Shown piece by piece: positions 13,457-39,192 of a DNA stretch of 64,000 nt (position 1 is the first letter of the stretch; the number at the start of each line of letters is the position of its first letter). A program made the position numbers and the translations under genes. This stretch comes from an uncultured Roseibium sp. (GTDB lineage Bacteria > Pseudomonadota > Alphaproteobacteria > Rhizobiales > Stappiaceae). A model generated the notes under the pieces. It did not search any database. It was not told the origin of the DNA and saw nothing but the letters and a program-made list of their open reading frames with translations. Location: the NCBI RefSeq assembly GCF_947496995.1, contig NZ_CANMFD010000001.1, forward strand, positions 1,112,692-1,176,691, read 5' to 3'.

Positions 13457-14962
13457 TCAGGACATCAGAGGCAGAAGGCTGCGTTCCGTCCAGGACTGCC
13501 GCTTGCGGTAGATTGTCGACGGGCTGATCTCCAGCGCGGCGGCGGCCATGGCGATATTGCCGTCGAAGGCGTCGAGCGTATCCTCGATGATCCGCCTCTC
13601 CTGGGCCCAGAGCGGTTCGATCGACCCGAAGGGCCGGCTCGGCGCGGCAACGCGGGACCGTTCCCGGGACAGATCGATGATGGCGTTCGGGCGGCTGCTC
13701 TGGTCACGGATGACCATCGGCAGCATGTCGAAGGTGATGGCGGCGCCGTCATTCATGACAACCATCTGCCGGATGGTGTTTTCAAGCTGGCGCACGTTGC
13801 CCGGCCATGAATAGGAAACGATCCGTGCTTCCGCATCGGCATCGAAGCCCCTGAAGCCGCGCCGTTCTTCCTTCGAATAGCGTTCCAGGAAGGTCTCCGC
13901 CAGGGGAAGAATGTCGTCGCGGCGTTCCCGCAGCGGCGGCAGGTGGATCGGCAGCACGTGAAGCCGGTAGTAGAGATCCTCCCGGAAGCGGCCGGCCGAT
14001 ATTTCGGCAACCGGATTGCGGTTGGTCGCGCAGATGATGCGCGCGTCGACCTTGCGCGACTGCGTGTCGCCAAGGCGCTGGAACGTGCCGGTTTGCAGGA
14101 AGCGCAGCAGCTTGCTCTGCAGCAGAAGGTCCATCTCGCCGATTTCATCCAGGAACAGCGTTCCGCCGTCGGCCTGTTCCGCGGCACCGGCCCGATTGTC
14201 CACCGCTCCGGTAAACGCCCCGCGGACATAGCCGAAGATTTCGCTTTCAATCAAATCCCGCGGAATGGCGGCGCAATTCAGCGTGACGAAGCGGCTCGGC
14301 CGGCGGTCCGACAGGTCGTGAACCGCTTTGGCGCACAGTTCCTTGCCCGTCCCGGATTCCCCGGTGATGAAAACCGGCGCCTGCGACGGCGCCATGCGGC
14401 TGATCTGGTCGTGAATATCGCGCATTTGCGCCGAGTGACCGATAAGTCGGTTCATCGCCTCGCGCACCGGTTCCTGCGGATTGCTCTGCGGGGCCAGATC
14501 GGAATTGACGGAAGCGGGCCGGATATCCTGCGGCTCCGATTGAGCAGGCGCAACGGGCGCGGGAACGGGGCGGCGCTGCTCGAGCTGGAAGGTGATTTTC
14601 GATGCAAGCGCGTCCAGCGAGAACGGCTTGGTCAGGAAATCATGCGCTCCGGACCGCATGGCGCTGACGGCGCGCGACACGGATCCTCTTGAAGAGACCG
14701 CCAGAATCACCGCCTTCGGGCACCGCACGGCGTAGGCTTCCAGTGCCTCATCGCCGCCGATGGTTTCCAGGTCGATTATGAGTATGTCGGTGGATTTGTC
14801 CGCGAGGTCCTGCAGACAGGAGGCTGAGTCCGTATAAAGGATTGGGTCCGTGCAGGAGTGAGACAGTTTCGCACACACTGCGGACGTGCGGGCGGCTTCA
14901 GAAGCCGATGCATCCAATACGCGTACAATCACAGGCAGGGCATTGCCTTCTTTACTCCCCAT
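13457..14962 (-). CDS. Sigma-54-dependent activator with atypical receiver domain
   Basis: A 501-aa NtrC-type bacterial enhancer-binding protein. Receiver-like domain at about 10-125, AAA+ domain at about 170-405, Fis-type helix-turn-helix at the C-terminus ([23 protein letters not shown]). Walker A is GESGTGKE (201-208), the sigma-54-contacting GAFTGA loop is at 248-253, and Walker B is [13 protein letters not shown]. The AAA+ part is therefore competent. The receiver keeps a candidate phosphoacceptor Asp64 and Lys112, but the usual N-terminal acidic pair is reduced to LDAS (Asp17 only), so phosphorylation control is doubtful. No kinase gene is adjacent. FlbD-like or LuxO-like roles are possible but unproven. 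Confidence 0.9.
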
Positions 14963-15188
14963 TGCTGGGTAACTCCCATCGCTCGACCGGTCATTCGGAA
15001 ATCGAAAGATTCGTCAATCTGATAATTCTCCGAACAGGGTAAACAAAGCGTTGTCAGTTCGCGCATTTTGCATTTAGTCGAAAGAGAAAGCGCTAAAGAG
15101 GCGAGTTATGCCCACGAATGTGGATTGTGGCTGCCCTGACAGGGTCGCGAGGCTTTGCGGTCAGGGGCCTGATCGCCGATCCTTGGCT

Positions 15189-15764
15189 TTACATCGAGCC
15201 TGCCAGATAGCCGATCAGCAGGCAGACAGCGCCGGATGCCGCCATGGCAGCCGCAACGACTGGCAGGGAAAAGCGCTGCGTCAGCACGGTATCCAGCCTG
15301 CCGGGCGCCCCGGAGCGAGGATGTGAAATGGAAAGGTCAGGGGGAGTTTCGTGCGGCACGGAGAAGGGTTTTTGCCGCTCGGTACACTCTGCCGGGCGAA
15401 ATTCGGGCGCATAACTTCCTTTGGGGATAACGATGCGGACAGGGTCACCCGATCCCGATCCTGAATAATATTTTTCCAGCCTCAGGCGCAGCCGGGCAGC
15501 TTCCACGCGAACGATCGGGTCTGTCACCGGATTGAACTCCTCCGGTCGGCCGAGCGCTTCCACGGCGATGGTGTAGCCTTTCAGACTGTCCCGGCCGTGC
15601 TTGAGTGTGGCTGTCCCGACAAATCTGAGAAAAGCGCAAAGCTGGGGCGCCGAATGGAATTCCGGACTTTTCAGTGTCCTGGCAAGGGCTCTTCGGATCT
15701 GCTGGTCGGAAAGGTTGCTGCCGCCGGATTGCGCTGGCTCGGGACCGGGACGCGTCTCATCCAT
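15189..15764 (-). CDS. Membrane protein resembling only the N-terminus of larger TPR/cyclase-like proteins
   Basis: A 191-aa protein. Residues about 20-125 (IRRALARTLKSPEFHSAPQLCAFLRFVGTATLKHGRDSLKGYTIAVEALGRPEEFNPVTDPIVRVEAARLRLRLEKYY, then PVRIVIPKGSYAPEF) match a conserved N-terminal region that I know from larger rhizobial proteins carrying TolB-like or TPR/adenylate-cyclase-related C-termini. Here it is followed by a Pro-rich linker and one transmembrane helix (FSLPVVAAAMAASGAVCLLIGYLAG), then ends. Either a natural short form or a 3'-truncated gene; no coding remnant follows. Function unknown. Confidence 0.7.
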   Translation of the reverse strand: MDETRPGPEPAQSGGSNLSDQQIRRALARTLKSPEFHSAPQLCAFLRFVGTATLKHGRDSLKGYTIAVEALGRPEEFNPVTDPIVRVEAARLRLRLEKYYSGSGSGDPVRIVIPKGSYAPEFRPAECTERQKPFSVPHETPPDLSISHPRSGAPGRLDTVLTQRFSLPVVAAAMAASGAVCLLIGYLAGSM

Positions 15765-16130
15765 TGCTGAACTGCCGGAATATAATTTCGCGGAGATGCG
15801 GCGCCTGTGTCTTTGTCCCGGCAGTATCCGGGTGCAAACGGCGCCAAATACCTCGGCCGGTATTCTCCATACCGGTCCCCCCTTCTTGTTATTGATAGCC
15901 GGAGATTATCTTCCCCTACGTAAGTTTACTGGAGCCGCTGTCGAATGCAAAGCTGAAAAGGCCTTTGGGTTACCGGACAAAGGCTCTGTTACGCAGGGAG
16001 ACTTGAGACATCAACAGTGGCCGCAACGGCAATTGAATTGCCGAAAATGCGCGGTAGAGCGAGCATAGTAGGGGACAAGTCACGGATTCTACACCGTAAA
16101 GCAGTTTGCGGATTCGGAGGCCGTCGTTTC
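15765..16130. other. Intergenic region upstream of the tipF-like gene
   Basis: About 370 nt with no credible ORF. It holds a perfect 17-bp palindrome CGGCAATTGAATTGCCG (16027-16043) and two GANTC sites (16085-16089, 16111-16115), leading into the CtrA box. Confidence 0.6.
16027..16043. promoter_or_regulatory. 17-bp perfect palindrome
   Basis: CGGCAATTGAATTGCCG is symmetric about its central G. It lies about 140 nt before the tipF-like start and 88 nt before the CtrA box. It could be an operator or a small hairpin; the binding factor is not known. Confidence 0.4.
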
Positions 16131-16146
16131 TTAAGGCATGATTAAC
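16131..16146 (+). promoter_or_regulatory. CtrA-binding box
   Basis: TTAAGGCATGATTAAC is an exact TTAA-N7-TTAAC match to the CtrA consensus. It lies 37 nt before the ATG of the tipF-like gene. Three GANTC (CcrM methylation) sites fall within 80 nt around it (16085, 16111, 16158), as at some cell-cycle promoters in Caulobacter. Confidence 0.7.
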
Positions 16147-16182
16147 GGGTAATTTTTGATTCGAGTTGGAATAGTACGCTCC

Positions 16183-17757
16183 ATGGGCCGCACAGGGACC
16201 ATATTCGTAGCAATCTGCATGGCGGTTATCGCGCTGTCATCGGCAACGGTGCTGGTGTTCCAGTTTGGCCGTCCCTTTGGCGAGGCCGTTTCCCTGTCGC
16301 TCGCTCTCATGTGCACCATGATCCTCGTTCATCTGCTGATCGGCCGGGCGCGCGACCGCAGCGCCGTCGGCGAGGCGGTTGACCGTCTGGAAGACCGGAT
16401 GGCCGACCTCGATGAGGATGTCGGCAATCTGGAAGGCCGGCTGACAGGCATGGAACATGCCGTTCCCCGCCGCACCCGGGCGGAAATCGATCCCCTGTTC
16501 GCCGAAGTGGAAGTTCTGGGCACCTTGGTGAAACAGATGGCCGAAGCCATGGCCGATCTGGAAACCAAGGTGGAAGACCAGCAGGCCCTGATGCCGCCGC
16601 CAAGGATGCCCAGCCTGCCGGGTTATCCGCAGGGACAGCAGCCCCAGGGACTTCCGCACCAGGGCCACCAGCACCAGAGCCACCAGCATCAGGGTTATCC
16701 GGCAGAACCTTATCCGGCGCCGAACGAAAGGCCGGATCAGAGGATGGATCCGCAGCAGGGCTACGGTCAGTTTCCGCCTTCCGCTGACGGCCATGGCGGG
16801 CAGACGGGGCACAGTGACATGGCTGAGCTGGACCGCCGCTACGGGGTTCACGCGCCCAGACACCCCGAAGACACGGCGCGTGCGCCCGATGTCCGCGCCG
16901 CCGAAACGCACGAACCTGGCCGGCAGTCCGGGGACAGCGCCGTGATGCAGCCGAACCGGCCGGGTCCGGATATGGCCATGCGGGAACTGGTCGCCTCGGC
17001 CCTGAATGCCAATCGCGTCGAACTGCATTTGCAGCCCATTGTCTCTCTGCCGCAGCGCCAGGTTAAATACTACGAGGCCTACACCCGCCTTCGCGATTCC
17101 GCAGGGAACCTTATCGAAGCCGCCAGGTTCATGCCGTCAGCCGTTCAGTCCGGCCAGATCGCCCGCATCGACAATCTTCTGCTGTTCCGTTCGATCCAGG
17201 TCATCCGGCGGCTGACCTCACGCAATCGCAACGCGGTCCTCTTCTGCAATATCTCTTCGCAATCGCTGATCGACGAGACCTTCTTCCCGGGTTTCCTGGA
17301 GTTCGTGAAGGCGAACCGCAACTTTGCCGATGCGCTCGTTTTCGAGTTCTCACAGACCGATGTCGCGGACATGGGGCCGATGGAACTGGAAAGCCTGAGT
17401 GCGCTTTACGAATCCGGCTTCCGCTTCTCCATCGACCAGATCTCCGACATGAAGATGGACTTCAACTCGCTGGCGGGACGCGGGTTCAAATACGGCAAGC
17501 TGCACGCGGACTATCTGATCGGCCGGCGAGAAGCCAAACACGGCCATATCCATCCTTCCGATTTCGGCGATCTTCTGCACCGCTACGGCATGGAGCTGAT
17601 CACGGATCACGTGGAAACCGAGTCCCAGGTTCTGGAACTGCTCGACTATGACGTGAAGCTTGCCCAGGGTAACCTGTTCTCGCCGCCTCGGCCGGTCAAG
17701 GCGGAGGTCCTCCAGGGAACCCCGGCACCGGGACCGCGGAGATCGGCAGCAGGCTGA
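16183..17757 (+). CDS. tipF: TipF-like degenerate EAL-domain protein
   Basis: A 524-aa inner-membrane protein: two N-terminal helices (TIFVAICMAVIALSSATVLVFQF and VSLSLALMCTMILVHLLIG), an acidic coiled coil (about 60-130), a Gln/His/Pro-rich linker (about 135-250) and a C-terminal EAL domain. The EAL motif reads EAYTRL, and the DDFGTG loop is replaced by SIDQISD, so phosphodiesterase activity is unlikely and c-di-GMP binding is the expected role. This architecture is that of Caulobacter TipF, a flagellar positioning factor. The ATG is preferred to the TTG at 16156. A CtrA box upstream supports a cell-cycle/flagellar role. The symbol rests on architecture and promoter, not alignment. Confidence 0.75.
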   Translation: MGRTGTIFVAICMAVIALSSATVLVFQFGRPFGEAVSLSLALMCTMILVHLLIGRARDRSAVGEAVDRLEDRMADLDEDVGNLEGRLTGMEHAVPRRTRAEIDPLFAEVEVLGTLVKQMAEAMADLETKVEDQQALMPPPRMPSLPGYPQGQQPQGLPHQGHQHQSHQHQGYPAEPYPAPNERPDQRMDPQQGYGQFPPSADGHGGQTGHSDMAELDRRYGVHAPRHPEDTARAPDVRAAETHEPGRQSGDSAVMQPNRPGPDMAMRELVASALNANRVELHLQPIVSLPQRQVKYYEAYTRLRDSAGNLIEAARFMPSAVQSGQIARIDNLLLFRSIQVIRRLTSRNRNAVLFCNISSQSLIDETFFPGFLEFVKANRNFADALVFEFSQTDVADMGPMELESLSALYESGFRFSIDQISDMKMDFNSLAGRGFKYGKLHADYLIGRREAKHGHIHPSDFGDLLHRYGMELITDHVETESQVLELLDYDVKLAQGNLFSPPRPVKAEVLQGTPAPGPRRSAAG

Positions 17758-17975
17758 TCAGCCGTTCGGCGCGCCGGCGGCAACAATTCATCCTTTGAAA
17801 TTCTGAGTGGCTTGCAGCGAAACAAGCTGAGTGCCTGTCACAAAACAGGTTCGATCCCTGACGCTTGCGAGGCTTCACAGCGCTGCGCAGCTTACGGCGA
17901 GATGATGTAGGGAAACATATGCGAAGAGGTGCGAGCGGCAGGCAGGGCCCGCCGCCAACACTCTTTAAGCATTTC

Positions 17976-19331
17976 TCAGCTCTGCTTGGGACCGACCATC
18001 ACGATGGTCGGTTGCTTTTCCGCCAGCAGACGTTTTGCGACGCGCTGGACGTCTTCCAGCGTGACTGCCTCGATTTCGCTGTTGCGGCGGTCGAAATAGT
18101 CGATGCCGAGATCTGCGTTCTGCAGGGCAACCAGCTGACGGGCGATCTTTCCTGAACTGTCGAAGCGCAACGGATAGGATCCGGTGATGAACTGTTTCGC
18201 GGAGTTGAGCTCTTCCTCGCTCGGACCTTCCGTGGCCATGCGCCGGAACTGTTCCAGCATGACATCGACGGTCTCGCCGGCGCGGTCGGCCTTGGTGGCC
18301 GCGGAGCCGATCAGGAGGCCCGCGTGACGGTAGGGCGAGAGCGACGTGCTGGCGCCGTAGGAAAGGCCGCGTTTTTCGCGCACTTCCTGATACATCCACG
18401 AGGTGAAGGTACCGGCACCGAGAATGTGGTTCATCACATAGGCGGCCTGATAGTCCGGATCGTCCCGCTTGATGCCCGGCAGTCCCAACAGGATCGTGGT
18501 CTGGGGAACCGGCAGTTCCTGGTAGACCTTCTTGCCGAACTCCGGCTCCAGATCGGGCACCGCGACGAGGTCGCCTGTTTCGGCAAGCGGTGCGAAAACC
18601 TCGTCGAGAATCGATTTCAGCCTCTGCGCGTCGATCGCGCCGACGACGCCGATGGTGAGCCCGTTTCGGGCCACAAGTCGTGCGTGCTGGGCGGCGAGGT
18701 CGGCAGGAGTGAGGCCGTTGATCGTCTCGTCCGTGCCGAGGGTCGGCCGGGCATAGGGGTGGCTGTCAAACATCGACACGGCGAGCGAGCGGCCGGCAAT
18801 CGAATCCGGGTCGCTTTCGTTGCGTCTGGCCTGGGCCGACAGCTGGGTCTGCATCCGCTCGACCGCAACGGCATCGAACCGCGGCTCGTTGACCGCCATC
18901 GCCAGCAACTGAGCGGCTTCATCGAGTGTCGGGGTGAGCGTCCGCAGACTGCCGTAGAACCTGTCCTTGCCGGTGCTGAAGCTGATGCTGACCGCCAGCT
19001 CTTCCATCCGCGCCTGGAATGCTTCGGAATCCAGATCTCCGGCGCCTTCATCCATGGTCGCGGCGAGCAGCCGTGTCAGGCCTTCCTTGCCTTCGGGGTC
19101 CTGGGCGGAGCCGCCTTCGAAGGAAAAGTTCAGCGCAATGATGGGCACCGTGTGGTCTTCCACCAGCCAGGCTTCAATTCCCTTTTCGCTGGTCACCTTC
19201 TGGATCTCGACGGCATTTGCAGGCTTGGTCAGTCCGAATGTGACGAACAGGGCCATGGCCAGCATGAAAAAGGCAAGGTTCGAAAAAAACAGGTTGGTAT
19301 CGGATTGCCGGAATTGGGTTGTCTTGGTCAT
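17976..19331 (-). CDS. M16-family peptidase-like protein, non-catalytic subunit
   Basis: A 451-aa insulinase-fold protein with an N-terminal signal/anchor (FFMLAMALFVTFGLTKPANA). The zinc motif HxxEH is missing: the matching helix reads EGLTRLLAATMDEGAGDLD. The C-terminal half keeps the substrate-binding R/Y element (REKRGLSYGASTSL). Such inactive halves pair with a catalytic M16 partner. The partner gene lies immediately upstream in the same operon, with only 3 nt between the genes. Likely periplasmic. The substrate is unknown; peptide turnover is the usual proposal. Confidence 0.88.
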   Translation of the reverse strand: MTKTTQFRQSDTNLFFSNLAFFMLAMALFVTFGLTKPANAVEIQKVTSEKGIEAWLVEDHTVPIIALNFSFEGGSAQDPEGKEGLTRLLAATMDEGAGDLDSEAFQARMEELAVSISFSTGKDRFYGSLRTLTPTLDEAAQLLAMAVNEPRFDAVAVERMQTQLSAQARRNESDPDSIAGRSLAVSMFDSHPYARPTLGTDETINGLTPADLAAQHARLVARNGLTIGVVGAIDAQRLKSILDEVFAPLAETGDLVAVPDLEPEFGKKVYQELPVPQTTILLGLPGIKRDDPDYQAAYVMNHILGAGTFTSWMYQEVREKRGLSYGASTSLSPYRHAGLLIGSAATKADRAGETVDVMLEQFRRMATEGPSEEELNSAKQFITGSYPLRFDSSGKIARQLVALQNADLGIDYFDRRNSEIEAVTLEDVQRVAKRLLAEKQPTIVMVGPKQS

Positions 19332-38793: not shown

Positions 38794-39135
38794 TTATACG
38801 CTTCGGAGGCTGACCTGGACCTTGCCCCCTCTTGCGGCGTCGTTGAAGCGGCTTTCTGTTTCCGTACCGGCGGCAACTGCCTGCAAATGGATCAGCTCGC
38901 CGGCATGTCCGGCTTCCATCACAAGGGAGTGCCGGCTGCAGAGTGCGGCAAGCGACAGCCCGAGCTTGCGGAAATGAGCGCGCCGGTAACAATAGATGGC
39001 CAATGCCGCGCGCTGGCTGTCCGGTAGCTGGTTGCCGACATCCGTCACCGCGTTGAACGTGGCGTCGAGCAGCCGCTTCAGCAAATCGTCCGATACCGGG
39101 CAGTTATCCAAATCCGTTGATCCCGTTGGCTGCAT
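38794..39135 (-). CDS. Hypothetical protein with CtrA-box promoter
   Basis: A 113-aa soluble protein, mostly helical by appearance, that I do not recognise. It carries three cysteines (C12, C49, C66), and the middle (QRAALAIYCYRRAHFRKLGLSLAALCSRHSLVMEAGHAGELIHLQAVAAG) suggests a compact helix bundle. Gene reality is supported by AGGAGAAGG just before the ATG, a CtrA-type TTAA-N7-TTAAC box 43 nt upstream, and a strong terminator. It lies downstream of a patatin gene on the same strand, with its own promoter. Confidence 0.7.
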   Translation of the reverse strand: MQPTGSTDLDNCPVSDDLLKRLLDATFNAVTDVGNQLPDSQRAALAIYCYRRAHFRKLGLSLAALCSRHSLVMEAGHAGELIHLQAVAAGTETESRFNDAARGGKVQVSLRSV

Positions 39136-39176: not shown

Positions 39177-39192
39177 GTTAATGCTTTGTTAA
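39177..39192 (-). promoter_or_regulatory. CtrA-binding box
   Basis: On the minus strand TTAACAAAGCATTAAC is an exact TTAA-N7-TTAAC match, 43 nt before the start of the 113-aa gene. Orientation (C after the second half) agrees with that gene. Confidence 0.6.

Follow-up and report, generated by a model that had tools for sequence, protein, structure and literature searches.

A predicted GcrA/CcrM-type promoter overlaid by a CtrA box upstream of a TipF-like gene in Roseibium

In Caulobacter, TipF-type proteins connect the cell cycle and c-di-GMP to the placement of the flagellum. The tipF promoter of C. crescentus requires GcrA together with an intact GANTC site (PMC3667746), and the early-firing class of Caulobacter GANTC promoters carries this site between the -35 and -10 elements (PMC4287350). 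For CtrA, position matters: in Caulobacter, full boxes activate if their 5' end is near -35, whereas sites over the -10 repress, and at the ctrA gene itself a full box lies at -14 of P3 and at -39 of P2 (PMC4287350). The CtrA of S. meliloti is mainly an activator (PMC4433202).

Here, we describe the region upstream of a TipF-like gene of Roseibium (Stappiaceae, Hyphomicrobiales), the source genus of the window, i.e., the whole stretch of 64,000 nucleotides that was analysed. It had originally been predicted that a CtrA box accompanied by three GANTC sites drives this gene, and the positions given for the box, the three sites, a palindrome and the gene itself were all verified in the sequence. 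Conservation was counted in 44 Roseibium species, the source genome among them, and in 32 further Stappiaceae loci (76 in all); the related loci belong to Roseibium or Labrenzia and, farther out, to Pannonibacter, Stappia, Hongsoonwoonella and Pseudovibrio. A literature search for Labrenzia yielded no paper that deals with the control of genes by CtrA in Roseibium or Labrenzia.

The TipF-like protein and the regulators of its genome

The gene extends from 16183 to 17757 on the + strand, with its ATG at 16183, and encodes 524 amino acids. The product contains one Pfam EAL domain (residues 271-502, E=5e-36), and its best NCBIfam match, with a score of 299 bits for the whole protein, is TipF (NF051880 equivalog). 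Since this score lies below the curated cut-off of 600, we name the protein TipF-like and not TipF; scores above the cut-off were obtained in 1 of 143 sampled genomes of the class, in Caulobacter vibrioides and in most Caulobacteraceae. Within its own genome, the gene is the sole match to the TipF profile at an E-value of 1e-40 or better. The TipF-like architecture that had been proposed is present, namely two hydrophobic N-terminal segments (hydropathy windows at residues 1-29 and 31-56), a heptad-rich stretch (coiled coil) and the C-terminal EAL domain, along with a low-complexity linker. The EAL domain is putatively degenerate, of the kind that would bind c-di-GMP without cleaving it. Of the residues in the EAL motif set, E298, N356, E388, D418, K439 and Q495 are retained, the second Asp of DDFG is changed to Gln (Q419) and the Glu of EGVE to Asp (D475). 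By sequence, the solved structures that come closest are those of EAL proteins, LapD and FimX among them.

The genome encodes GcrA (193 bits), a RAMA-domain protein of 382 amino acids that is consistent with CcrM, and a CtrA with 96% identity over 201 amino acids to a Caulobacter query sequence. The TTAA-N7-TTAAC consensus occurs 27 times in this 5.46 Mb genome, both strands counted, and shows no genome-wide enrichment over a reversed control (27 vs 26). Perfect boxes are located near the genes for flagellin, flgB, fliM, a TadE/G-like protein, an S11 carboxypeptidase, an SLT transglycosylase and dnaB, and another near an ABC ATPase gene that we read as FtsE; going by these neighbourhoods, flagellin, flgB, fliM and the other neighbours are plausible CtrA targets. 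The CtrA box of one flagellin gene, TTAACGATTCGTTAAC (L244:1000-1016; G000:C4:289180-289195), has a GANTC inside its spacer, and none was seen there in the boxes of other species that were examined. In the window, TTAA-N7-TTAA was observed twice against an expectation of 0.09, and the second perfect copy lies at 39178-39192, 42 nt before an ORF of 113 amino acids (38794-39135, minus strand) that has no Pfam match.

Conserved elements upstream of the gene

Based on conservation, we read positions 16071-16162 as the promoter of the TipF-like gene. Its CtrA box, TTAAGGCATGATTAAC, is an exact match to TTAA-N7-TTAAC at 16131-16146 on the + strand, as had been predicted, and ends 36 nt before the ATG. 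A complete TTAA-N7-TTAA precedes tipF in 39 of the 44 Roseibium species, and TTAAGGCATGAT is retained in 42; in the other Stappiaceae genera the box is absent at that place, so the conservation expected among relatives holds for the genus and not for its sisters. Mean pairwise identity in Roseibium reaches 1.00 in the left half of the box, 0.985 in CATGAT, 0.93 in the middle GANTC and 0.85 in the right half, compared with about 0.4-0.5 between the promoter elements and 0.29 farther upstream; the segments that neighbour the half-sites reach 0.42 and 0.55. In a maximum-likelihood tree of 75 proteins, Roseibium forms a supported group (100/99), and the loci without the right half of the box fall at several separate positions. 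The simplest reading of this distribution is that the box was gained once, on the Roseibium stem, and that its right half was then lost several times.

The N7 spacer of the tipF box is 99% identical across species, whereas the corresponding values are 0.70 for the flgB box and 0.52 for the flagellin box, the latter set being a rough control because flagellin has paralogues. This difference suggests that another element overlaps the tipF box, and the candidate is a predicted -10, CATGAT, at 16137-16142 on the + strand. It would be paired with a predicted -35, TTCGGA, at 16113-16118 on the same strand, 18 bp before the -10, and the predicted transcription start, placed from the -10, would fall at 16149 +/- 2. 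Against this assignment, CATGAT agrees with TATAAT in just 4 of its 6 bases, and the predicted -35 is itself weak.

Further evidence for such a core comes from genera that have no box. In Pannonibacter, g29 and most Pseudovibrio, CAAAAT or CAAGAT occupies the place of the box (CAnnAT is thus retained in these sister genera). This hexamer is preceded, at a distance of 21 bp, by a GANTC or by what is left of one (GGTTC, GGCTC), and a GATTC follows 15-17 bp later; the 21-bp spacing from GANTC to core is also found in Roseibium and in part of a Stappia-like genus. In Roseibium species that are devoid of the middle GANTC, the spacing persists, as does the greater part of the TTCGGA-like element. 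A spacing that stays fixed despite the loss of the GANTC is explained by a -35/-10 pair with an 18-bp spacer. Most Pannonibacter loci, g29 and some Pseudovibrio loci have GCAAAATC at the core, and this sequence agrees at 6 of 7 specified positions with GCTANAWC, the Caulobacter -10 consensus. The core pattern is poorly matched by the g27 and g26 loci and by some of those from the Stappia-like genus. In all five Pannonibacter loci (L045-L049), the predicted -10 is directly followed by GTTAAC, which may be a CtrA half-site in the region of the start.

The GANTC sites are located at 16085-16089 (distal, GATTC), 16111-16115 (middle, GATTC, overlapping the -35-like element) and 16158-16162 (proximal, in TTGATTCG). 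The original prediction put the number of GANTC sites expected by chance at about 0.3, where three are seen within 80 nt. The motif is strongly under-represented in the window, with 90 sites observed vs 330 expected. When 90 sites are placed at random, 33% of trials contain three of them within 78 bp, with a mean of 0.42. As the triplet alone is not significant (P about 0.33), conservation must bear the case. Across the 76 Stappiaceae tipF loci, GANTC density is 18.5/kb at -130 to 0, counted from the start codon, vs 1.1/kb at -400 to -130. GATTCG near -26 (range -15 to -40) is present in 44/44 Roseibium and in 30/32 other Stappiaceae, which makes the proximal site the most widely conserved element of the region, and a GANTC at -60 to -95 is found in 41/44 Roseibium. 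The three sites are not equivalent: the one at 16158 is nearly universal, the one at 16111 is sometimes lost, and the one at 16085 is patchy, being found in only part of Roseibium. Within the genus, therefore, the expected conservation was found for the box and for the GANTC sites at 16111 and 16158, and not for that at 16085. Conserved GANTC sites, gcrA and a ccrM-type gene, the combination looked for in a GcrA/CcrM-type promoter, are all found in this genome.

An element that the original prediction missed, GGGGACAA, lies at 16071-16078 on the + strand, which is roughly -78 to -71 relative to the predicted start. It is conserved in 44/44 Roseibium, 9/9 Pseudovibrio, 3/5 Pannonibacter and 1/1 g29, and its distance to the predicted -10 is 65-67 bp in all carriers (Roseibium, Pannonibacter, g29 and Pseudovibrio). 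This fixed distance points to one further putative input. The idea that it belongs to a set of promoters that recurs was dropped, because GGGGACAA combined with the -10 was found only once in the genome. Set against TTGTCCACA, TTGTCCCC bears a likeness to a weak DnaA box and is a candidate for one.

Two other features of the region were considered and set aside. The perfect palindrome that had been reported farther upstream is indeed there: CGGCAATTGAATTGCCG, a 17-nt inverted repeat at 16027-16043, reads CGGCAATT-G-AATTGCCG. It was rejected as an operator, as it lacks conservation, being degraded in the three closest relatives and unrecognisable in more distant ones. The TTG at 16156 was considered as the true start codon, by which GATTCG would be coding, and was discarded since its frame relative to the ATG changes from species to species. 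An Rfam search of 14900-18000 found no known RNA in the leader.

Repression or activation through the CtrA box

We propose, with a probability of roughly one half (0.52), that an ancestral GcrA/CcrM-kind promoter of the sigma70 type was overlaid by a repressing CtrA operator in the ancestor of Roseibium. The ancestral core would consist of the -35 TTCGGA, the 18-bp spacer, the -10 CATGAT and a start near 16149, and the GATTC sites on either side of it, at 16111 and 16158, would be methylated by CcrM. GcrA and RNA polymerase would read these sites and, once replication has passed the locus, turn the gene on. In the Roseibium ancestor, the DNA around the -10 would have been turned into a full CtrA box, and CtrA-P bound to it would block the -10. 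Expression would then be expected in S phase or in early predivisional cells, ceasing as CtrA accumulates.

The sign of CtrA action depends on the start. A start near 16149 puts the box at -18 to -3, from where repression is predicted; with a start near 16166-16170, the box would occupy an activating position. The claim that the box drives the gene is at odds with the predicted layout, where the -10 falls inside the box, a position from which CtrA represses in Caulobacter (PMC4287350). From this layout, we infer that repression is likelier than activation, and the expected sign would be corrected accordingly: the box may turn the gene off.

Activation by CtrA would place the box near the -35 of a start at 16166-16170, 13-17 nt before the ATG, with the proximal GATTC overlapping its -10. 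In Caulobacter, full TTAA-N7-TTAA boxes do activate when the 5' end lies close to -35 (PMC4287350), CtrA is largely an activator in S. meliloti (PMC4433202), and the box is complete in 39/44 Roseibium, all of which speaks for this arrangement. Nonetheless, we consider it unlikely, as no -10-like hexamer is conserved from GATTCG to the ATG, and as the -10-like core of Roseibium lies at a variable distance from the ATG (39-44 nt) while the spacing from -35 to -10 is constant. Furthermore, activation leaves the invariance of the spacer unexplained, and the same core is retained in genera that have no box. On these grounds, a start near 16149 is favoured over one near 16168.

Two promoters could also share the box: one of GcrA type, which would start near 16149 and be repressed by CtrA, and another, activated by CtrA, which would start near 16168. 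Exactly that arrangement exists at P3 and P2 of Caulobacter ctrA (PMC4287350), and the Roseibium sequence fits both spacings; the downstream start would again be without a conserved -10, and we rate this possibility as rather improbable. Finally, there is little to commend the idea that the box is merely the A+T-rich core of the promoter, with a fortuitous likeness to a CtrA site and no action of CtrA on it: TTAAGGCATGAT (42/44) is better conserved than the right half, which was lost several times, and TTAA-N7-TTAAC is no commoner than its reversed control (27 vs 26), but both half-sites persist in 39/44 species amid varying neighbouring bases, and sister genera hold the core without the TTAA halves.

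If the proposed overlay of a repressing CtrA operator is true, Roseibium has placed this operator on a GcrA/CcrM-kind promoter by a single gain on the genus stem and has retained the older core. Rewiring between CtrA and GcrA/CcrM could then be tested by a few point mutations.

Comparison with Caulobacter and other lineages

Several distant lineages may differ from Stappiaceae and Caulobacteraceae in what precedes tipF. Among 28 loci from elsewhere in the class (L089-L116), TTAAC-N6-(T/C/G)(T/C/G)AA occurs within 130 nt upstream of tipF in 13, compared with 0.004 per 130 nt expected from the flanks of the same loci, and GANTC is at background (6/28); this box is to be taken as a lead, because the pattern was framed after the sequences had been viewed and several start codons are uncertain. 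Several distant lineages would hence have a CtrA-like TTAAC-N6-YCAA box and no GANTC excess, whereas Caulobacteraceae and most Stappiaceae have GANTC and no box. A tentative reading, to which we give clearly less than even odds, is that alphaproteobacteria, as they evolved, exchanged one of the two master regulators of the cell cycle for the other in the control of tipF, and that Roseibium is a natural intermediate with both in one interlocked element, its GcrA-type promoter having been overlaid with a CtrA operator.

The tipF promoter of C. crescentus (PMC3667746) shares with Roseibium a TipF-type gene that has a GATTC shortly before its start codon, and the predicted layout is comparable across Caulobacteraceae. 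Among 27 usable loci of that family, GATTC is close to the start codon in 26, a GATANT-like hexamer precedes it by 5-12 bp in 22, and a TTCGAC-type sequence is found 17-20 bp upstream of this hexamer in 11. The distance from hexamer to GATTC is 14-15 bp in Roseibium, in contrast to the 5-12 bp of Caulobacteraceae. The families also differ in the box itself: Roseibium tipF has a full CtrA box, while none occurs within 130 nt in the 27 Caulobacteraceae loci. The Roseibium GANTC sites, at -38 to -34 and +10 to +14 of the predicted start, do not match the early-firing Caulobacter class, which is a weakness of the model.

For the overlay, the closest counterparts are P1 and P3 of C. crescentus ctrA and P2 of mipZ (PMC4287350), where a CtrA site lies over the -10, as is predicted here for Roseibium tipF; ctrA P1 moreover combines its CtrA site with a GANTC, as is seen at Roseibium tipF. 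The Caulobacter repressor sites are mostly half-sites, whereas the putative one at Roseibium tipF is fully palindromic and its spacer does not vary. The flagellin and flgB boxes of the same genome follow the same TTAA-N7-TTAAC consensus as the tipF box, but their spacers vary and that of tipF does not.
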